Positions 6,527 through 32,100 of a DNA stretch of 39,245 nucleotides are shown piece after piece. This DNA is from a virus. The notes beneath the pieces are model-generated. The model was not told the DNA's origin. It saw only the letters and a program-made list of their open reading frames with translations, and did no database searches. How positions within the stretch are numbered: the stretch's first letter is position 1; each line of letters begins with the position of its first letter. Position numbers and translations under genes: made by a program. The stretch covers positions 1 through 39,245 of IMG/VR virus record IMGVR_UViG_3300034109_000875. The stretch is one strand, 5' to 3'.

Positions 6527-9496
6527 ATGGCAACCGCGCCCGCACTTGCCTACCAAGCGCCAGCCGGCATGGCTTGCCGCGGCGGCAGTTTCCCGCCGGG
6601 CTTGAGCGGGGCGCTGCTTGCCGCGTCTGCCGTGGGCACTGGGGCCGTCGACTCCAGCAACGTGGTGACGCCGCCGGTCAGTGTGCCCGCGGGCGGCATT
6701 CCGCAGTACCTGACCAGCGACGGCGGCACGGCAGGGGTGGGCAGCAACTACAGCGGCCCCACGCGCGACAAGTGGCACAACCGCCTGGGGTTTGCATGGC
6801 TGCGCCCCAACACCATGGGCAACTGGCTGGACGCGAGCCAGGTGCAAGAGGGCTCGACCCCGTTTGCATCGTCAGCGCCCATCACCACCGTGGGCCAGCG
6901 CGTGTCGATCACCGCCACCGCGCTGGTGGCCAGGTGGTTGGCCAACGGCCAAAACCGTGGCACTTACCTGCGGATCACCAGCGGCAGCTTGTTCCCGGTG
7001 GCATTCCATGGCCGCACAGACCCAACCAGCGGCTTGCGGCCCACGCTCACTGTCGTGACCAGCACGGGCACTACCGTGCTCACCGCCCAGTGCAACGCCT
7101 GGTGGCAAAGCAGCAGTTTTCAGGCAGCCGGCAGTGCGCTGGAATGGCGCCTGGCGTCTGGCCAGTCCCCCGCCATCCTGCGTTTTGATGTGTCCGCCAT
7201 CGCTGGCACGCTGAACAGCGCCACGCTGGAATTTAGCGTCAAGGCTTTCCCCAGTGGCGGCAGCACTGGCCAGGTCGTCGCGCTGTTCGAGGCCGACCCG
7301 CCCGCCATCATCGACCCCGTGAGCGTGACCAGCCCTGCGGCTGGCCTGCTGACCGGTTACGCCAACTTCGGCGCGTTCAAAGCCGCCAGCCTGCCCAGCG
7401 TGCTGCTGGCTGACGACTTTGAAAGCCCTGGCCCATTCGACACTGGCTTTACCCCTGCTGCTACCCGCACGCTGAACACCGCCACCGGCACCACCTACGC
7501 ACGCGGCACGATTCAGGGCGGCGGCAGCCCAGGCAGCGGCACGTCCAGCCTGGACAACAACAAAGCCTTTACGGCCGGCACGGGCACACGCGGCGCCCCT
7601 GATGTGGTGCGCCCTGAGCTGTTCGGCCACTACGCCTGGTACATGGAATCGTCGTTTGGCACCCAGCAGGACGACGCCATCAAGATTCCCGCCATGGGCG
7701 TGCAGTTCGGTGTGTGGAACCCGGCAGGCTACTGGCAGCAGACCACAGGCAACGGCGGTTCACGCGGCACCGGCCTGAAAGTCGACAACGGCGGCGCGTC
7801 CAACTTTGAGTACCAGGGCCACAGCGTGCGGCTGCTGACCGGCACCGCCCCCAAAGCCGGCGACGACGACCCCTATACCGGCTGGTTCGGCGTGGGTGTG
7901 TACCCGTACAACCTGGACCAGGTGCAAGACTTTCCCGAAGGCGAAGCGGTGCCCTATGTCGCCCTGCGCCGTGAAGCCTGGTATGACATCGACATTCGGG
8001 TCAAGCAAAACAGTGTGTCGGGCACGCAGGACGCGCTGGGCAACTGGTCCGTCGCCAACGCTGACGGCATCTACCAGATCTGGATCAACGGTTACCTGGC
8101 CTACAGCAAGACGACGTTCAGGTGGCGCCGTCACCTGGAATTCGGCGTGCAGGGCCTGTGGCTTGATGTGTACCACGGCGGCCAGTCCCCCGCGCTGGTG
8201 GACATGCACTACCGCATCGACCGCGTGGCCGTGGCCACGCAGTACATCGGCCCGTCTGCACCGCTGCTGCCCGCCTGGGTGCCGGCGCCGGGTGACGCTG
8301 CCGTGCTCAGCGTGGCCAACGGCAAGCTCACCAACTCGCTCAACAGCGTGTGGGTCAGCTACTACGACACGTTCTATGCGCACCGCATCGTCAGCGACTA
8401 CAGCACCACGGTGCTGAATCCGCACTATGGCCAGTACGGCGCCCTGGTGCTGCACGGCGGCGGCCACAGCGGCACCAACGACAACACCATCGCCGGCCTG
8501 GTGCTGAACGACACCGGCGGCACGTTTGTGCGCTGGGTGGACCCCACGCCCCACTACGGCAGCGCTCCCGGCAACGCCTTCGCCAACAGCAGCACCAGCG
8601 ACGGCAATTTGGCCAACAACACCCACGGCGAAAACATCTCAGACGGCAAGCCTGCGTCCATCCACAGCTATGGCATTGGCGACGTTCTGTCGCCAGCCAA
8701 CGGTGGCGCCGTCATGGGCACCTATGTGCGCGCAGCTGCAGCCGCAGTCAACCAGGCCGGGTTCAAATCAACGCGTGCTTTGCACTCGCTGCCGTTCCCT
8801 GGGGTGCGCAACGCCGCAGCAGCCAACCCGGCGGTGTGGGCCCGGCGCGGCAACAACCCGTCGCCGTTTGCCAACAACACCAACAGCGAATACGCGCCCG
8901 TGTGGACGTGCCTGGTGCCCAGCCAGAACCGCATTTACACCGTCAACGTCAACACGCTGCAGCGCCCGCAGTGGTGGGATCTGAACACCAACACCCACGT
9001 CATCGGCACCGGCACTGCGCTGGACATGACCATCGACGGCGACGGCGGCAACGGCATCAACCAAGGCGCGCTGTTCCACGTTCCCGCGCGCAACCTGCTG
9101 CTGTTCATCTGCCGCAGCGGCGGGGCCATGCGGATCCAGGCGCTGGACACCACGCAAGCGCAGCCCAGCTGGTCCATCGTCGGCACGCCCAGCGTGGCCA
9201 TATCGCTGCCCTTGACCTGGAGCGCTGGCTGCTGGTGCGAAGACAACAACCGCGTCATCGTCGGCAACATCGCCGGCGATGCCAACGCTGTGTACGAGCT
9301 CGAGATACCCACCAACCTGGCCGCGTCTTGGCCGGCCACGCGCCGCCCGATTGGTGGTGCGGCCATCAACTGGTACACCCAGTGCGGCCCCAAAAAGTGG
9401 ACCTACAACCCAAAGACCAAGTGCATCCCGTACTACCCGTTCGGCAGCCAAGGCGGCCAGGATGTGGTGTATGCGTACAGGCCCTTTGGCACCTGA
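6527..9496 (+). CDS. Large capsid-proximal accessory protein with lectin-like and propeller-like regions
   Basis: A 989-residue protein placed between capsid and connector genes, where most HK97-type phages have nothing this large. Residues about 1-260 are beta-rich. About 280-580 resembles a concanavalin-like/polysaccharide-lyase fold (DDFESPGP, then a WYDIDIRVKQN strand and GIYQIWINGYLAYS, then YRIDRVAV). About 580-989 has repeated Gly/Trp blades (LHGGGHSGTNDNT, WWDLNTNTHVIG, SAGCWCEDNNRVIVG) like a kelch or sialidase-style beta-propeller. It may bind or cut surface glycans. Fold calls are by pattern, not alignment. No strong Shine-Dalgarno is visible, so the start is uncertain. Confidence 0.7.
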   Translation: MATAPALAYQAPAGMACRGGSFPPGLSGALLAASAVGTGAVDSSNVVTPPVSVPAGGIPQYLTSDGGTAGVGSNYSGPTRDKWHNRLGFAWLRPNTMGNWLDASQVQEGSTPFASSAPITTVGQRVSITATALVARWLANGQNRGTYLRITSGSLFPVAFHGRTDPTSGLRPTLTVVTSTGTTVLTAQCNAWWQSSSFQAAGSALEWRLASGQSPAILRFDVSAIAGTLNSATLEFSVKAFPSGGSTGQVVALFEADPPAIIDPVSVTSPAAGLLTGYANFGAFKAASLPSVLLADDFESPGPFDTGFTPAATRTLNTATGTTYARGTIQGGGSPGSGTSSLDNNKAFTAGTGTRGAPDVVRPELFGHYAWYMESSFGTQQDDAIKIPAMGVQFGVWNPAGYWQQTTGNGGSRGTGLKVDNGGASNFEYQGHSVRLLTGTAPKAGDDDPYTGWFGVGVYPYNLDQVQDFPEGEAVPYVALRREAWYDIDIRVKQNSVSGTQDALGNWSVANADGIYQIWINGYLAYSKTTFRWRRHLEFGVQGLWLDVYHGGQSPALVDMHYRIDRVAVATQYIGPSAPLLPAWVPAPGDAAVLSVANGKLTNSLNSVWVSYYDTFYAHRIVSDYSTTVLNPHYGQYGALVLHGGGHSGTNDNTIAGLVLNDTGGTFVRWVDPTPHYGSAPGNAFANSSTSDGNLANNTHGENISDGKPASIHSYGIGDVLSPANGGAVMGTYVRAAAAAVNQAGFKSTRALHSLPFPGVRNAAAANPAVWARRGNNPSPFANNTNSEYAPVWTCLVPSQNRIYTVNVNTLQRPQWWDLNTNTHVIGTGTALDMTIDGDGGNGINQGALFHVPARNLLLFICRSGGAMRIQALDTTQAQPSWSIVGTPSVAISLPLTWSAGCWCEDNNRVIVGNIAGDANAVYELEIPTNLAASWPATRRPIGGAAINWYTQCGPKKWTYNPKTKCIPYYPFGSQGGQDVVYAYRPFGT

Positions 9497-26558: not shown

Positions 26559-26716
26559 GATGTCGCTCGCTCCTGAATCCAGCGGGTCACAGCGGGCAAG
26601 TCAAACCGCCGCCGGCTGCCGACCAGCATACTCGGGCAGCCGTCAAGAATCATGCGCGCGACAGTTCTTTCGCTGGTGCGCAAATGGGCGGCCAGCTCTG
26701 CGGGTGTGAGCATCAT
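26432..26716 (-). CDS. xis: Excisionase-like HTH protein
   Basis: A 94-residue protein with an N-terminal winged-helix of the MerR/excisionase type ([21 protein letters not shown], then [13 protein letters not shown]). Small basic HTH proteins next to int usually direct excision. Its ATG overlaps the stop of intI (ATGA) and its 3' end overlaps int. The second half is polar and less conserved. A role as transcriptional regulator cannot be excluded. Confidence 0.75.
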
Positions 26717-27693
26717 GCCAAGGCGTCCAGTGGGCTGCGCACACCGGCGGCGCCGGTGTTGGCCACGTGGGTGTAGATCATGGTGGTGCTGACGTCACTG
26801 TGACCCAGCAGGGTTTGGATGGTGCGGATGTCCTGGCCGGATTCCAGCAAATGCGTGGCGAAGCTGTGCCGCAGCGTGTGCATGGTGCAGCGGTGCGTGA
26901 TGCCTGCTCGCTTAACTGCAGTGGACAGGGTTCTGCTCAGGGTCTTTTGATGCAGGTGGTGCCGCCTGATGGCGCCTGTGCGCGGACATTTGCTGTAGTC
27001 GGCGGCTGCAAAGACCCACTGCCACTGCCATTCGGTTGCGGCTTTGGGGTACTTCACCGACAGGGCGTGTGGCAGCTCGACGTCCACCATGCCACGGCCC
27101 ATGTCGACGTGGTGCATCTGCAGGCGGCGGGCCAGCTGGCGCTGCAGGCCGGCTTCCAGGCCGCGTGGCAGCATCGTGGTGCGGTCTTTGTCGCCTTTGC
27201 CGCCGCGTATCGTGATGCAGCGCCGGCCAAAGTCAATGTCCTGCACGCGCAGGTGCATGACGTCGGCGATGCGCATGCCGGTGCCGTAGACCAGCGCGAT
27301 CGCCAGGCCTGCGCCGTTGCGTGGCAGGGCGGCGATGACCCGGGCAACCTCTGTTTGGCTCAAGACTGTTGGCAGCCTGGCCGGCTGTTTTGCGCGAACG
27401 ATGTCAGCCATCCATGGCAGGTCCATACCAAGCACCTGGCGATACAAAAACAGCATCGCGGCCAGTGCCTGGCGCTGCGTGCTGGCGGCGACTTCGCGGT
27501 CGGTTGCCAGGTACGTCAGCCAGGCCTGGACACGGTCACCGCCCAGCGTGGCTGGGTGCTTGCAGCCGGCCCAGCGCACGAACTGTTTGTACCAGCCCAC
27601 GTAGCTGCGTTCGGTGGCCAGGCTGTAGTGGCGAACGCGGCAGGCGTTGCGGATCTGGTCTTCTAGCTTGGGCTGCGTGGTGTTAGCAGACAT
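26713..27693 (-). CDS. intI: Integron integrase IntI
   Basis: A 326-residue tyrosine recombinase that is clearly of the integron class. Catalytic residues are Arg141 (GTGMR), a Lys loop at 166-171, His272-x-x-Arg275, His298 (LLGHSD) and Tyr307, all offset by a constant 5 from those of class 1 IntI. It carries the IntI-only insertion near residues 209-228 ([17 protein letters not shown]) that binds extrahelical attC bases, and ends [10 protein letters not shown] as IntI1 does. It should recombine folded attC with attI. It starts 39 bases from attI and overlaps xis, making it part of a phage intI-xis-int operon. No good Shine-Dalgarno is visible. Confidence 0.95.
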
Positions 27694-27731: not shown

Positions 27732-27738
27732 GTTAGCC
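27732..27738 (+). other. attI: attI-like core, left boundary of cassette array
   Basis: GTTAGCC (one mismatch to GTTRRRY) lies 39 bases from the intI start. It is exactly complementary to the R'' box GGCTAAC of attC1, as expected if cassette 1 inserted here with the crossover between G27732 and T27733. The surrounding AAGTTAG resembles the attI1 core context. Confidence 0.75.
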
Positions 27739-27773: not shown

Positions 27774-28142
27774 TCACGCCTTGTGGGTGCCTTCCACGCC
27801 ACGGCGCATGCGCTCCAAGGTGCGGCGGTTCAGCCAGTTCTGCGCGTCCTCGATGTGCGTCAGGGCCAGCGCGTTGTAGCGGCTGGCGAATGGGCCTTGC
27901 TGGAAGCTGCGCAACCTATCGGCCACGATTGCAAGCAGCACTTCGTGCGTCAGCCCGTTCACGCCGGCCTCGTTGACCGGCCCGTTCTGGAACTCGATCA
28001 GCACGCTGTTGGCGCCGCTCTTGCCCTTGTATCCGCTCACCTCGTACATGTGGTTTGCACCACCGCTGCCGGGCTCGTCGGTCACGGCCACAGTCAGCAC
28101 GTCGTTTGCGGGGTTCACTTTGTGGTCGGTCAGTTCACGCAT
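27774..28142 (-). CDS. Cassette 1: candidate Acb2/Tad1-hairpin anti-defence protein
   Basis: A 122-residue protein. The N half is beta-like (VLTVAVTDEPGSGGANHMYEV..). The C half (IEFQNGPVNEAGVNGLTHEVLL, then FASRYNALALTHIEDAQNWL, then RRGVEGT) matches from memory a widespread phage family assigned to the Acb2/Tad1 helical hairpin, whose members sequester cyclic or ADPR-derived immune signals. The start at 28142 has GGAG seven bases upstream on the minus strand; the longer frame begins inside attC1. It is the attI-proximal, presumably newest, cassette. The family call needs a profile search. Confidence 0.6.
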   Translation of the reverse strand: MRELTDHKVNPANDVLTVAVTDEPGSGGANHMYEVSGYKGKSGANSVLIEFQNGPVNEAGVNGLTHEVLLAIVADRLRSFQQGPFASRYNALALTHIEDAQNWLNRRTLERMRRGVEGTHKA

Positions 28143-28178: not shown

Positions 28179-28236
28179 GGCTAACCCCTCGCTCAACCTG
28201 ACCGCCTACGGCGGCAAGTTAGCTCGAACGTTAGGC
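28179..28236 (+). other. attC: attC1
   Basis: R'' GGCTAAC (28179-28185), L'' CTCAACCTGACCGCC, a TAC loop, L' GGCGGCAAGTTAG, R' GTTAGGC (28230-28236). CT(C)AAC pairs with GTTAG leaving one extra C on the left arm. At 58 bp it is a short attC with a 3-base loop and an unpaired spacer CCCTCG / CTCGAAC. Confidence 0.9.
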
Positions 28237-28335: not shown

Positions 28336-28530
28336 TCAGCCGAGTTCCACCCGCTCGGGGTAGTTCTGCGGCTCGACCGGGGTTCCAATTTCCATCAGTT
28401 GCAGCATGCGCGCCGCAGCCTTATATGCGTTCGGGTAGCAGGTTTGCGGCAAGCTGTTCCCGGCGTCGTCATAGCCGCCAACATCCCACCCTCGTTCGGT
28501 CTGCGCAACCGTGAATGTCCATGCGCTCAT
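28336..28530 (-). CDS. Cassette 2, second gene: small protein, unknown
   Basis: A 64-residue protein (MSAWTFTVAQTERGWDVGGYD..., then YPNAYKAAARMLQLMEIGTP). Its ATG overlaps the TGA of the Tad2-like gene (ATGA), so the two are co-translated from one cassette. The beta-hairpin followed by an amphipathic helix looks like a small compact domain. I do not recognise a family. Longer upstream frames lie wholly within the other gene and are not supported. Confidence 0.6.
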   Translation of the reverse strand: MSAWTFTVAQTERGWDVGGYDDAGNSLPQTCYPNAYKAAARMLQLMEIGTPVEPQNYPERVELG

Positions 28531-28781
28531 GCTGCAATCTCCCAATCTGTTGCTTCGGTGTCGTCCGTCTCTGGAGCAAATAGCACCTTGCTTTCTGCGC
28601 CCTGAAACACCAGCACCGGGCGGCCGCCATCTGTCCAGGCGGCAGCTAGGCGCGTGGTTTCGGTGCCGCATTCGTAAATCGGCACCCCGTCGCTATGCCC
28701 AATCAGCTTGCGCTGCTGCTGGCTTTTGCGGTGTACGTGATGGCCGCGCTTCATGGCGTCCACAGCTTCAATCCAGTTCAC
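28527..28781 (-). CDS. Cassette 2, first gene: candidate Tad2-like anti-Thoeris protein
   Basis: An 84-residue protein from a GTG start with GAGAGG eight bases upstream. The N-terminal motif WIEAVDAMKRGHHVHRKS and the closing ATDWEI match the pattern of Tad2/DUF2829 proteins ([FW]xEAxxAxKxGkkVxR ... DWE), which bind the Thoeris signal gcADPR. The centre (GTETTRLAAAWTDGGRPVLVFQG) would form the remaining strands. The distinctive GW after the first basic motif is not obvious, so this may be a divergent member. It is translationally coupled to the next small gene. Confidence 0.6.
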   Translation of the reverse strand: MNWIEAVDAMKRGHHVHRKSQQQRKLIGHSDGVPIYECGTETTRLAAAWTDGGRPVLVFQGAESKVLFAPETDDTEATDWEIAA

Positions 28782-28810: not shown

Positions 28811-28869
28811 GCCTAACCCCGCCAATCAAGCTGACCGCCTACGGCGGCAGCTTATTTGCAACGTTATGC
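28811..28869 (+). other. attC: attC2
   Basis: R'' GCCTAAC (28811-28817), L'' ATCAAGCTGACCGCC, short loop, L' GGCGGCAGCTTAT, R' GTTATGC (28863-28869). The left arm again has one extra C (AT(C)AAGCTG). At 59 bp it shares its hairpin tip with attC1. Confidence 0.9.
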
Positions 28870-29226
28870 AGCACCAACAGCCAGCCGCAGCGCATCTCGC
28901 GCCATGCTCATCGGGCCGTCGTCGCGGAATCGGGAGGCGCATTCCTCGTCCATAACCTCCTGCATGCGCTCTGCGTGGCGCAGCAGGCTGCACAGCGCGT
29001 TCAGCAGGTCGGGTGCCGCTGCGCAAAGGGTGGCGTTCGCCACAAGCTCAAGCAGCGGCGCGTCATCGCGTCGGCCGCCTTGCATGGTGGCGCTAAAGCG
29101 GTTGCGCTGCGGCTGTCCATGCAGCGCGTACACGGTCGGGCCGCTTCCGCTCACATGCCAAGGCCCCGGCGTGTGCTGCATAACAGGTCGCTGAAGCGGA
29201 GCAACGCCGGCATCATCGGTGGTCAT
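28864..29226 (-). CDS. Cassette 3: HTPGPW-type phage protein, unknown
   Basis: A 120-residue protein. The HTPGPW motif followed by Trp/Gly-rich strands and then LLELVANATLCAAAPDLLNALC matches a common family of small phage proteins of unknown role. The ATG at 29226 lies in the loop of attC3, with GAAAGGA seven bases upstream, also in the loop. Residues 1-16 are encoded by the attC3 left arm. The stop TAA at 28864 is part of the attC2 R' box. Both gene ends are thus made of recombination sites. Confidence 0.8.
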   Translation of the reverse strand: MTTDDAGVAPLQRPVMQHTPGPWHVSGSGPTVYALHGQPQRNRFSATMQGGRRDDAPLLELVANATLCAAAPDLLNALCSLLRHAERMQEVMDEECASRFRDDGPMSMARDALRLAVGAA

Positions 29227-29270
29227 GTTCAAATCCTTTCGGGCGTTGCCCGCTTAGCTTTCAGTTAGGC
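29179..29270 (+). other. attC: attC3 with start codon in its loop
   Basis: R'' GCATAAC (29179-29185), L'' 29192-29209, loop 29210-29241, L' 29242-29256, R' GTTAGGC (29264-29270). Two extra bases, CT(G)AAGCGG(A)GCAACGCC, stand out on the left arm. R'' is the complement of attC2 R' GTTATGC. The loop holds the Shine-Dalgarno and ATG of the cassette 3 gene on the minus strand. Confidence 0.92.
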
Positions 29271-29575
29271 CCTTGAAGGCGGCCAGCATTGCCAAGAATC
29301 GCGTTCCGTATTTCCGTGGCAATCGCCTGCTGCTCAGGGGTCAACCAGCCGGGCGGGCGGAGGCACAGTGCGGCGCACCGCTCGCGCTCTGCAGCCATCT
29401 TTTTCGCAGCGTATGCGCGCATCTGGTCAGCGGTGTATGTGTACATCGCTGCGCCTACGGTCCCGAGTGCCCGCGTGTAAACCGCTCCGCGCGGCATGTC
29501 CCCGAAGCGGATTTCGGGAACATCGGGCCTAACCTGGCAGTCAACCGGACTTGCGCCGGCAGCAGTCGTGGTCAT
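29261..29575 (-). CDS. Cassette 4: small phage-type protein, unknown
   Basis: A 104-residue protein. The N terminus MTTTAAGASPVDCQVRPD is encoded by the attC4 arm. The body has YTADQMRAYAAKKMAAERERCAALC, a charged helix common in small phage early proteins. The ATG at 29575 lies in the attC4 loop, six bases after GAAAGGA; a second ATG at 29581 abuts the Shine-Dalgarno and is less likely. The frame crosses the attC3 R' box as CCT-AAC and stops at the TGA just beyond. Its function is unknown. Confidence 0.75.
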   Translation of the reverse strand: MTTTAAGASPVDCQVRPDVPEIRFGDMPRGAVYTRALGTVGAAMYTYTADQMRAYAAKKMAAERERCAALCLRPPGWLTPEQQAIATEIRNAILGNAGRLQGPN

Positions 29576-29617
29576 CGTCATTCCTTTCGGCGCAAGCCGG
29601 TTACTTCAACGTTAGGC
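29527..29617 (+). other. attC: attC4 with start codon in its loop
   Basis: R'' GCCTAAC (29527-29533), left arm GTCAACCGGACTTGCGCC, right arm GGCGCAAGCCGGTTAC, R' GTTAGGC (29611-29617). The left arm has two extra bases (GT(C)AACCGG(A)CTTGCGCC). The loop carries GAAAGGA and two ATG codons on the minus strand. Confidence 0.93.
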
Positions 29618-29929
29618 CCTTGCGGAGTTCTCAGCGTCTGCGGCTTCTTGCGCCTCAATCATCGTCTCGAATCGTGCAATGCCGCCTTCGCTGTCGCGCA
29701 ACTGCTCCCATGCTGTGTGGCTGACTTGCCTGCACACGTAGTAAGGGCGCAGCTGCGGCCGTTCCAGCATAGAGACAGACCACGGGCCGCAATGCAATTC
29801 GTCTGCGCAGCCGCACTCTGGCCATGCCTCGCACTTGTACGAACACGGGCCCAACACCAAATTCGACTTGAGAGCCAACGGCTGCGGGGCGTGGTCGCCT
29901 GGGTGGGTGTTGTGTGTTTCGGTGGTCAT
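29612..29929 (-). CDS. Cassette 5: Cys-containing small protein, unknown
   Basis: A 105-residue protein with a cluster of five Cys (CSYKCEAWPECGCADELHC), which could bind zinc, and a helical C terminus (FETMIEAQEAADAENSARA). The ATG at 29929 is in the attC5 loop with GGAG in the attC5 right arm. Residues about 8-27, including PLALKSNLVLGP, are encoded by the attC5 left arm. The stop TAA at 29612 comes from the attC4 R' box. The incoming gene from cassette 6 overlaps its ATG as ATGA. Confidence 0.72.
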   Translation of the reverse strand: MTTETHNTHPGDHAPQPLALKSNLVLGPCSYKCEAWPECGCADELHCGPWSVSMLERPQLRPYYVCRQVSHTAWEQLRDSEGGIARFETMIEAQEAADAENSARA

Positions 29930-29962
29930 TTGGTTGGCTCCAAGTCAATGCTGCCGTTGGGC
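29849..29962 (+). other. attC: attC5 with start codon in its loop
   Basis: R'' GCCCAAC (29849-29855), left arm GACTTGAGAGCCAA, right arm TTGGCTCCAAGTC, R' GTTGGGC (29956-29962). One extra A on the left arm (GACTTG(A)GAGCCAA). Unlike the other sites, its R'' matches its own R' rather than the box at the cassette's left end. The reverse of R' has no TAA, so the gene entering from cassette 6 is not stopped here. Confidence 0.85.
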
Positions 29963-30159
29963 GGCTTGGTGTGGTCCAACACTCCGCAGGGCCGCACCGT
30001 CTTGGCCGGGTGGTTACTTTGCTGTGCGCGGTAGTACGTCGGATCGGCGGTCCAACAGTTTGCAAGCCACCAGCGGCTTACGCGCCGGCCAAGGTCGGCA
30101 CCGCATACAACGCACGCGCGCTGGCCTTCGGCCTTCAGGTGCAGCGTCTCTTCACTCAT
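29926..30159 (-). CDS. Cassette 6, second gene: small CxxC protein, reads through attC5
   Basis: A 77-residue protein with ACVVCG near the N terminus and two further Cys, possibly a zinc knuckle. It runs past its cassette's left boundary (29956) because the attC5 R' box lacks an in-frame stop. It ends at a TGA overlapping the ATG of the cassette 5 gene. Its last ten or so residues (GSIDLEPTK) are encoded by attC5. It overlaps the preceding gene's end by eight bases. The Shine-Dalgarno is weak, consistent with coupling. Its function is unknown. Confidence 0.62.
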   Translation of the reverse strand: MSEETLHLKAEGQRACVVCGADLGRRVSRWWLANCWTADPTYYRAQQSNHPAKTVRPCGVLDHTKPPNGSIDLEPTK

Positions 30160-30370
30160 CGCTTGGCAGGCTCTTGGCGCTGGGCCGGCGCGTGTAGCCG
30201 GCTGCGCGCATGCGTTGGCCCCGGCTTGGTTCGCTGGTCAGCATGTACGGCTTTCCGCCGAGCCAGTGCACGCCCAGCGGAGTTTCTGCACGCTTCGGCT
30301 CCAGCCGCCCAACATCGCAGTCAACCGGAGTGCCGCCAGGTTGCGTCGGTGGGGTTTGTGTCTTGGTCAT
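30152..30370 (-). CDS. Cassette 6, first gene: small protein, unknown
   Basis: A 72-residue protein. The N-terminal peptide MTKTQTPPTQPGGTPVDCDV is encoded by the attC6 loop and left arm and resembles that of cassette 4. The body contains LGGKPYMLTSEPSRGQRMRAAGYTRRP, a basic stretch. The ATG at 30370 lies in the attC6 loop with a GGGTGA-type Shine-Dalgarno in the right arm. A GTG at 30379 is an alternative start. The function is unknown. Confidence 0.62.
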   Translation of the reverse strand: MTKTQTPPTQPGGTPVDCDVGRLEPKRAETPLGVHWLGGKPYMLTSEPSRGQRMRAAGYTRRPSAKSLPSDE

Positions 30371-30400
30371 GGGCGTCACCCGGTTACTTTTACGTTAGGC
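30307..30400 (+). other. attC: attC6 with start codon in its loop
   Basis: R'' GCCCAAC (30307-30313), left arm GTCAACCGGAGTGCCGCC, right arm GGGCGTCACCCGGTTAC, R' GTTAGGC (30394-30400). Extra C and A on the left arm as in attC4. R'' is the complement of attC5 R' GTTGGGC, the box at the left end of this cassette, which confirms the cassette limits. Confidence 0.92.
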
Positions 30401-30652
30401 TGCAGGCAGCATGGCCGCATCAACGGCCGTGTCTAGGCTGGCAGCATCGACCGGCGTCAGGTCCATGCGAACCTCGACGCGCAACACTTCTCGCTTTGGG
30501 CTGCCACCGTCGGTATCAATCACCAACTCCCCAAAGTGCTCGCGCAGCCATGCATACCGCTTCGCATATTGCAGCGCCTTCTCGCCATCAATGGCGCTGT
30601 TGCAGTCGCTGCACTTCATCCCGCACGCTGGCGCAATGCAGTAGTAAGCCAT
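30395..30652 (-). CDS. Cassette 7: Cys-containing small protein, unknown
   Basis: An 85-residue protein starting MAYYCIAPACGMKCSDCNSA, with four Cys suited to a zinc site, then a helix (LQYAKRYAWLREHFGELV) and a strand pair (REVLRVEVRMDLTP). AGAGGA lies seven to eight bases upstream of the ATG, which is 23 bases outside attC7. The stop TAA at 30395 comes from the attC6 R' box. The family is not recognised by name, though the Tyr-Cys start is common in phage proteins. Confidence 0.72.
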   Translation of the reverse strand: MAYYCIAPACGMKCSDCNSAIDGEKALQYAKRYAWLREHFGELVIDTDGGSPKREVLRVEVRMDLTPVDAASLDTAVDAAMLPAA

Positions 30653-30675
30653 CGTTCATCCTCTCCGGCCGTCAG

Positions 30676-30777
30676 GCCTAACTCTTCGTTCCAAAACGAC
30701 CCGCCACGGCGGGCCGCGCTACTTCTTCTAATCAACCGTTCGGCGCCGTGGCGGTCGTTTGAACTCGGCCGTTAGGC
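30676..30777 (+). other. attC: attC7
   Basis: R'' GCCTAAC (30676-30682), left arm GTTCCAAAACGACCCGCC then ACGGCG, right arm CGCCGTGGCGGTCGTTTG then AAC, R' GTTAGGC (30771-30777). Extra bases on the left arm at three points (GTTC(C)AAA(A)CGACC(C)GCC). The long perfect GC stem makes it the strongest hairpin of the array. No start codon lies in its loop. Confidence 0.9.
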
Positions 30778-31356
30778 CCCAATCCCATGCGCCGCTTCCA
30801 CCGCGCGGATCAGCGCCTTGATCTCCGCGTCGGTGCATCGCGTGATGTGCGGCGCCCAGCTCAAGCCCCTGTCCAGGTGCTTGCGGGCCAGCTCCAGCGC
30901 CTGTTCATCGTTGAGAGGCGGCCTTCGCCGAAGGTCTGCATAGGCGGCACCCAGCAGCGTGTGCAGTCGCTGGCATTCGGCCAGCGCATCGTGCTTTTCC
31001 TGCACCACGACGCCAAATGCCTCCTTCGCGCCTTCTTCCGCCGCTTCCAGCTCTTGCAATCGCACGCGCCAGTGCCCGCTGCACTCGGTAGTTGCAGCAA
31101 GCACGCACGCCCCCGCGTAGTCGTGCATCTGCTCGGCACTGAACAGCGGCACGCTGCGGGTGGGCTTCATCCCGTTATGCGGTGCCGCGCTGAACTTGCG
31201 CGTGCCATATGGTCCGTCCCATTCGTAGCAGTAGTCGAGCGGCTCGGGCATGGTCACGTTGGGGCCTAACCCCTCGCTCAACCTGAGAGCCAACGGCATG
31301 CCGCCAGGCCCGCCAGCCACAGTGGTAGATTCTTCGTCTGTCGGGCCTGTCGTCAT
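30772..31356 (-). CDS. Cassette 8: coiled-coil phage protein, unknown
   Basis: A 194-residue protein, the longest in the array. Residues 1 to about 33 (with MPLALRLSEGLGP) are encoded by attC8. Next comes PLDYCYEWDGPYGTRKFS and SVPLFSAEQMHDYAGACVLAA, a motif shared with cassette 4 and frequent in phage proteins, then a coiled coil (LQELEAAEEGAKEAFGVVV) and a helical C terminus. The ATG at 31356 in the attC8 loop overlaps the TGA of the upstream phage gene. The stop TAA is in the attC7 R' box. Its function is unknown. Confidence 0.72.
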   Translation of the reverse strand: MTTGPTDEESTTVAGGPGGMPLALRLSEGLGPNVTMPEPLDYCYEWDGPYGTRKFSAAPHNGMKPTRSVPLFSAEQMHDYAGACVLAATTECSGHWRVRLQELEAAEEGAKEAFGVVVQEKHDALAECQRLHTLLGAAYADLRRRPPLNDEQALELARKHLDRGLSWAPHITRCTDAEIKALIRAVEAAHGIGA

Positions 31357-31389
31357 TCCGTCGTCTCCAGGTTAGCTCGAACGTTCGCC
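31264..31389 (+). other. attC: attC8, distal attC fused to a phage gene
   Basis: R'' GCCTAAC (31264-31270), left arm starting CTCAACCTGAG, right arm ending CCAGGTTAG, spacer CTCGAA, R' GTTCGCC (31383-31389, two mismatches to consensus). CT(C)AACCTG pairs with CAGGTTAG. Its outer parts are nearly identical to those of attC1. The right arm and R' encode the last residues of the phage gene ending at 31353. Confidence 0.82.
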
Positions 31390-31817
31390 GCCCGCGCCCA
31401 CATGCGCGCCATCTGCTGCTCAGACCAGTCAGCAGCCTGCGACGCTGTAGGCTGGTCCACGCGTTCTGCAAGATCATCCATCACTTCAATTCCCAGTTTG
31501 GCCACTTGATACTCCACGCCGCTGAACCCGACACGCCCGGTGCGGCCAAAGCGCTCCACCACACGCGTTGACATCTCCATCTGGGCCCGCATGTCTTCTA
31601 CGCGGTAGCCCAACAGGTCGGCCACGCGCGACCAGGTCAGCGTTTGTTCCACCAGGTGCTGCATCACCAGTCCGTCGGCCTGGCCTTTGGCGATAAGGTC
31701 CAGGTTCTGCAGGTGTGCGATGGCCAGGTCGGTCAGTTGGCCACGTTGCAGCTTGGGGCGCAGGCCGCGTGGCGGCATGGCTTCAACGCGGCGGCGCTTG
31801 CAGCTTTTACGGCTCAT
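31353..31817 (-). CDS. Early phage protein, unknown, 3' end passes through attC8
   Basis: A 154-residue basic, helical protein (MSRKSCKRRRVEAMPPRG, LTDLAIAHLQNLDLIAKGQA, WSRVADLLGYRVEDM). Proteins starting MSRK-C-KR are common in early regions of beta-proteobacterial prophages. The last ten residues or so (ANVRANLETTE) are encoded by attC8, and the stop overlaps the first cassette start as ATGA, so translation is handed from phage gene to cassette. The start at 31817 is chosen for its fit to this N-terminal motif; a longer frame begins at 31853. Confidence 0.68.
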   Translation of the reverse strand: MSRKSCKRRRVEAMPPRGLRPKLQRGQLTDLAIAHLQNLDLIAKGQADGLVMQHLVEQTLTWSRVADLLGYRVEDMRAQMEMSTRVVERFGRTGRVGFSGVEYQVAKLGIEVMDDLAERVDQPTASQAADWSEQQMARMWARAANVRANLETTE

Positions 31818-32100
31818 TGCCTGGCGCCATGGCCTGTTTGATGGCCGCAGCAAGCGCTGGGGATGCCATCAGGATGGTTTCGTCTGACATCCTGTCAAAG
31901 GCTTCGTTGAACACGCGGCCCAAATCGCCGCCTGGTGTTTGGTCGGGCAAGGTGATCATCGTCTGGCCGACGAACTCAGCGGGTGACACGCAGCGGTAGT
32001 CGCGCAGCGTGTTCCAGTCGTCGCCTTCCTGCACAAACACCGCTTCGGTGTTGTTCGGCAGGGTCAGCGCCACGGCCTTCAGCTTCCTGGCTTTCAGCAT
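31807..32100 (-). CDS. Small early phage protein, unknown
   Basis: A 97-residue protein (MLKARKLKAVALTLPNNTEAVF, then DRMSDETILMASPALAAAIKQA). It overlaps the next downstream gene by 11 bases and the upstream kinase gene by seven, a tightly packed leftward operon. It has a mixed alpha/beta pattern, no membrane segment and no recognised motif. Its function is unknown. Confidence 0.6.
   Translation of the reverse strand: MLKARKLKAVALTLPNNTEAVFVQEGDDWNTLRDYRCVSPAEFVGQTMITLPDQTPGGDLGRVFNEAFDRMSDETILMASPALAAAIKQAMAPGNEP

Follow-up and report, generated by a model that had tools for sequence, protein, structure and literature searches.

Inverted integron cassettes with putative translation starts inside attC hairpins in a temperate phage operon

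Introduction

The locus considered here raises the question of whether an integron recombination site can also serve as the place where translation of its own cassette begins. Canonical integrons need a platform promoter, and the attC hairpins there block translation; in the phage array described below, the hairpin itself would be the start signal, and a promoterless gene could enter a viral operon translation-ready. The window, i.e., the whole stretch of DNA that was analysed, is the 39,245-base virus record IMGVR_UViG_3300034109_000875, in which tail, integrase, nucleotide kinase, and primase/helicase genes were recognized. A first-pass annotation of this DNA had proposed that, in cassettes 3, 4, 5, 6, and 8, the start codon is located in the loop of the attC hairpin and the Shine-Dalgarno (SD) sequence in the loop or the right arm.

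Materials and methods

Viral loci were gathered via IntI searches and two attC pattern scans that contained no start-codon terms, which provided 151 loci besides the window. The attC finder and the coding-strand score were both home-made; the structural finder returned 249 unique attC sites, against approximately 9 from shuffled DNA at an equal score. A loop start was defined as an ATG in bottom-strand sense that is preceded by an SD match of 4 or more bases and opens an ORF continuing for at least 40 codons past R''. The non-redundant set, obtained by clustering at 85%, consists of attC sites from metagenomic IMG/VR phage contigs. The rule for attC orientation was checked on class 1 integron plasmids, Vibrio, a Shewanella phage integron, and the array of phage TJE1 (PMC9892861), and gave the canonical result on all of them; the bacterial controls were few and mostly class 1.

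Phage context and anatomy of the array

Read leftward on the minus strand, the window contains, in order, phage gene 31853–31353, eight cassettes, intI, an excisionase-like gene, and the phage integrase; the array forms an integron in a temperate phage's leftward operon, which would also transcribe it. Eight sites show the hallmarks of integron attC: an R' and an R'' box, L arms that pair, and extrahelical bases in L''. The features are as follows.

26713–27693, minus strand: intI, integron integrase (TIGR02249, 427 bits against a cut-off of 265)
27732–27738, plus strand: putative attI core GTTAGCC, adjoining the intI start (sequence motif only)
27774–28142, minus strand: cassette 1 ORF, weakly Acb2/Tad1-hairpin-like, start outside attC1 (PF24729, 1e-4, below cut-off; PHROG 2428, 1.9e-34)
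28179–28236, plus strand: attC1, short loop, no internal start (attC fold; extra base in the L'' arm)
28527–28781, minus strand: cassette 2 ORF, Tad2-like (PF11195, 6.4e-7, 30.3 bits, cut-off 25)
28811–28869, plus strand: attC2, short loop
28864–29226, minus strand: cassette 3 ORF, attC3-coded leader, PHROG_1273 homology from residue 16
29178–29270, plus strand: attC3, SD and ATG in the loop (fold, extrahelical-base orientation)
29224–29240, minus strand: attC3 start signal, SD GAAAGGA at 29234–29240, ATG at 29224–29226
29261–29575, minus strand: cassette 4 ORF
29527–29617, plus strand: attC4, SD and ATG in the loop
29573–29588, minus strand: attC4 start signal, SD GAAAGGA at 29582–29588, ATG at 29573–29575
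29612–29929, minus strand: cassette 5 ORF, its ATGA overlapping the stop of ORF 29926–30159
29849–29962, plus strand: attC5, ATG at the loop edge, SD paired, within the 5' arm of the mRNA hairpin
29926–30159, minus strand: second ORF of cassette 6, running into attC5, stop at ATGA
30152–30370, minus strand: first ORF of cassette 6
30307–30400, plus strand: attC6, ATG in the loop, SD GGTGA in the 5' arm
30395–30652, minus strand: cassette 7 ORF, start immediately past R'' of attC7, TAA stop within the R' box of attC6
30676–30777, plus strand: attC7, start codon outside, past R''
30772–31356, minus strand: cassette 8 ORF, ATGA overlapping the stop of the upstream ORF 31353–31853
31264–31389, plus strand: attC8, last attC ahead of the left operon of the phage, helix containing SD and ATG

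The intI gene is presumably active, and its product clusters with the viral-only IntI sequences L003, L008, and L011. A search for this IntI clade in 84,980 species genomes gave no close relative and two distant recombinases only, so no cultured host was found; among isolate phages and plasmids, all IntI matches were below 60% identity. No close relative of the window phage was found among isolate phages. The nearest primase/helicase matches belong to phages of Acidovorax, Burkholderia, Pseudomonas, and Variovorax, and it is because of these matches that our guess for the host is Burkholderiales. An Rfam scan of the window gave no matches. In another locus of the set, L006, positions 9001–9435 contain a phage intI with an internal deletion and both ends still in frame, apparently a decayed integrase. 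Phage gene 31853–31353, located upstream of the array, ends inside attC8, and its C-terminal residues are coded by the recombination site.

Orientation of the cassettes

On the plus strand, the extra L-arm base lies in the left arm, matching the top strand of a canonical attC. Since the same rule proved valid on the control arrays, the attC sites of the window are canonical relative to intI, and it is the cassette ORFs that are inverted; the cassettes are not of canonical build, all of their ORFs running in bottom-strand sense. Because of this inversion, each ORF has its attC at the 5' end, and the strand present in the mRNA is the bottom one, which is recombinogenic and folds. In the related set, 168 attC sites were scored as reversed and 16 as canonical. 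Arrays of canonical orientation (L015, L144, and L032) make up a minority of the viral contigs, and both kinds occur in viral collections. The inversion had been overlooked in the first-pass annotation, as had the stop codon in the R' box and the starts past R'' in short-loop cassettes, which are described below.

Start signals within the attC sites

The five ATG codons previously named as internal starts are all present on the minus strand, and each is accompanied by an SD match within its attC site: AAGGA at 7 nt for 29226 (attC3), AAGGA at 6 nt for 29575 (attC4), GGAG at 8 nt for 29929 (attC5), GGTGA at 5 nt for 30370 (attC6), and GGAG at 8 nt for 31356 (attC8). All five are situated between the R' and R'' boxes. 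Each ORF reads from its internal ATG through L'' and R''; MTTDDAGVAPLQRPV is an example of a predicted attC-coded leader. The placement of the start in the hairpin loop held for attC3, attC4, attC6, and, at the loop edge, attC5, but not for attC8, where the fold takes up both the ATG (unpaired 0.15) and the SD in a long, imperfect helix. In the attC3 loop, the unpaired values were 0.71 for the SD and 0.73 for the ATG, and in the attC4 loop 0.51 and 0.99, respectively. The SD sequences of attC5 and attC6 are within the paired 5' arm of the mRNA, which is the right arm of the earlier description. When the sites were judged as initiation regions by SD spacing, start codon, accessibility, and open frame, attC3 and attC4 were complete in every respect, and the SD was paired in attC5, attC6, and attC8; because the SD of these three sites lies in paired sequence, their starts may be weak or coupling-dependent.

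The short-loop sites attC1 and attC2, as well as attC7, have the start of their ORF just outside R'', as the earlier restriction of internal starts to five cassettes had implied. Cassette 2, for instance, possesses a GTG start past R'' of attC2, with the SD GAGAGGA.

Stop codons, cassette boundaries, and module reuse

The R' box of attC6 carries a TAA that is the stop codon of the upstream ORF, and such an R' TAA ends 76 of 150 preceding ORFs. Cleavage in the ORF sense falls at GCCTAA^C, so this TAA belongs to the preceding cassette itself. Identical cassettes found between unrelated flanks in related contigs have both boundaries exactly at GCCTAA^C, with the attC before the ORF (e.g., 394 nt at 99.5% in L029 and L050), which points, indirectly, to mobile cassettes cleaved at G^TT of R'.

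Unrelated cargo follows near-identical attC/leader modules in three pairs of contigs, L029/L088 (99%), L049/L061, and L092/L131; in the first pair, the 99% identical attC sites occupy positions 2032–2127 of L029 and 339–434 of L088, with unrelated cargo behind them. The attC of L092 had no match among isolate phages. A different kind of exchange was observed at 8470–8880 of L045 and 5430–5832 of L087, where the attC loops ahead of one and the same cargo ORF differ and the junction falls inside L''; this arrangement suggests that the exchange occurred within attC and not at R'.

Survey of phage attC sites

The search of other arrays proposed in the first-pass annotation revealed strong enrichment of loop starts, on the predicted strand only and in long-loop attC sites only. 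Among the 249 unique sites, 63 loop starts were found in bottom-strand sense against 6 on the top strand, and 56 of the 63 ATGs are in the terminal loop. In the non-redundant set, 58 of 128 long attC sites contain an ATG with an SD opening an ORF via R'', so loop ATG and SD are absent from over half of the long sites; 100 shuffles gave a mean of 8.4 and a maximum of 15, and the opposite strand gave 5. When an SD of at least 5 bases was demanded, 40 long sites remained, compared to 2.8 in shuffles. No internal start was present in any of the 68 short non-redundant attC sites. Sites outside the search pattern were enriched as well (loop start in 51 of 124), and at least one loop start occurs in 42 of the 92 attC-bearing loci.

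The loop ATGs were more often unpaired than other SD-ATG starts of the same loci (0.69 vs 0.49, p = 7e-7), and an A-rich, low-GC signature is confined to the SD and codons 2–5 of the loop-start ORFs. Passage through R'' uses the V-R frame in 36 cases and the L-G frame in 27; the TAG frame, excluded by the open-ORF requirement, was used in none. The homology of cargo proteins to PHROG families, where present, mostly begins near or past the end of the attC-coded leader: two cassette proteins have PHROG_1273 homology from residues 16 and 18, their leaders being ~16 and ~18 residues long, respectively, and for a protein whose leader is ~22 residues long, PHROG_839 homology begins at residue 21. 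One MT-A70 protein is an exception, its PHROG homology extending from residue 8. A start past R'' was present in 85 of 103 short attC sites. The conserved motif CGAAGCGAGAGGA, located past R'', might have been a second start module of general use, but it was found in only 4 of the 103 short sites, and this idea was ruled out.

Proposed mechanism and alternative explanations

In a long-loop attC, the variable terminal loop would act as the translation initiation region, providing SD and ATG. The ORF then passes L'' and R'' in either of the two frames in which the TAG of GTTAGGC is not read, this passage adding a leader of about 16–30 residues, and the far end of the cassette, GCCTAA, often provides the TAA stop. 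A short-loop attC is too small for a ribosome-binding site, and the SD and start usually lie just 3' of R''. Each cassette would thus be a complete translation unit, able to enter a phage operon without a promoter. We infer that ribosomes initiate at the loop ATGs, and we consider it likely that the inverted cassettes, with their attC-borne starts, are translated as self-contained units in the phage operon. The earlier proposal that each cassette arrives ready to translate in an existing operon is, as an interpretation, supported by the enrichment, the accessibility, and the base-composition signature.

The loop ATGs might instead be incidental, the ORFs extending back into attC and the real starts being downstream of R''. 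The ATG in R'' of attC3 matches the usual N-terminus of PHROG_1273 proteins, and some cassettes, e.g., L011 4397, have a second SD and ATG past R''; however, a competing in-frame ATG with an SD past R'' exists in only 6 of the 63 loop-start cassettes, the loop ATGs are in 7-fold, strand-specific excess over shuffles, the A-rich signature is at the loop ATG, and the same attC/leader occurs with unrelated cargo, all of which makes incidental ATGs quite unlikely. Misassignment of attC orientation in an ordinary canonical array has to be considered too, as attC is near-palindromic and its orientation depends on extrahelical bases and box asymmetry. Such an error is highly improbable, given that the rule was correct on known canonical arrays and that the mobile units begin at R', with the attC ahead of the ORF.

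Two further readings concern the role of the hairpin and of the leader in cassettes that are inverted and self-contained. The first-pass annotation had mentioned that the hairpin could regulate translation; as a translational switch, it would expose a paired SD once ribosomes finish an upstream ORF inside attC (ATGA coupling), and this would add to the self-contained-unit explanation for some cassettes. At attC8, and by ORF overlap at attC5, coupling is suggested by an upstream ORF that ends at ATGA together with a paired SD; L096 contains two similar cases, and the stop of 9 of 13 run-in upstream ORFs falls between −5 and +1 relative to the ATG. Over the whole set, however, no significant difference in SD pairing separated run-in from non-run-in sites (p = 0.25), and the SD is unpaired in most loop starts, so that a switch appears rather doubtful. 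A functional role of the attC-coded leader, as an N-terminal tag common to cassette proteins, has a very small chance of being correct: leaders such as AVAGPVERxVRP and LGLSEGLG recur on unrelated proteins, but the common residues are explained by the conserved L'' and R'' DNA. Leader substitutions were distributed over the three codon positions as 74/75/76, with no bias and no selection on the leader peptide found in this comparison; in the absence of codon-position bias, the leader looks like a tolerated by-product.

Comparison with known systems

The phage cassettes have much in common with those of class 1 and chromosomal integrons, namely, a TIGR02249 IntI, attC sites with R', R'', L', and L'' and extrahelical bases, and G^TTRRRY bounds. 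They differ in that the ORF is inverted, attC precedes it, the start codon lies within the attC loop, and a phage operon would read the cassettes toward intI. Phage integrons and CALINs, i.e., attC arrays, sometimes with intI and with methyltransferase cargo, were reported in phage genomes (Qi et al. 2023, PMC9892861); they include pieces of host integrons and arrays of typical orientation, and the sections of that paper drawn on here do not mention inverted cassettes or attC starts.

A recombination site containing SD and ATG that aids cassette translation is exemplified by ORF-11 of attI1 (Hanau-Bercot 2002, as cited in PMC8876359). That ORF, however, is located in attI, is a separate 11-aa reading frame, and couples to the first cassette only, whereas in the phage array the start of each cassette would lie within that cassette's attC and be in frame with the cargo. 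According to the same source, attC is a translation barrier and contains short ORFs (Jacquier 2009, via PMC8876359). Hairpins of attC in mRNA influencing translation and ORFs inside attC are common to that system and the phage array, but there the mRNA bears the top strand and downstream expression is lowered, in contrast to the phage array, where the mRNA bears the bottom strand and the loop would be the start site. In the open-access literature, no inverted phage cassettes with attC-loop starts were found, and priority is therefore uncertain.

We regard the inverted cassette, read as a self-contained translation unit, as a new type of integron cassette. It seems somewhat probable that a class of integron peculiar to phages has evolved: its hairpin would provide the ribosome-binding site and N-terminal coding sequence and the cassette end the stop, it would shuffle counter-defence and other small phage genes in an early operon, and recombination and translation would compete for the hairpin sequence. 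In this way, phages could exchange small genes, among them likely counters to restriction and to Thoeris-type defence, in parallel with the integrons of bacteria. Note that the orientation rules and ORF calling of integron tools may overlook or mis-start such cassettes.

Cargo of the cassettes

Cassettes 1 and 2 resemble Thoeris/CBASS counter-defence proteins, the Tad2-like match being above the cut-off and the Acb2/Tad1 match weak. Other cassettes of the set code for DNA methyltransferases and a Lar restriction-alleviation protein, besides numerous small unknown phage proteins; a counter-defence role would apply to a minority of the cassettes. A related phage array, at 1326–8904 of L011, contains about ten attC sites and several DNA methyltransferase cassettes, one of them MT-A70-like.
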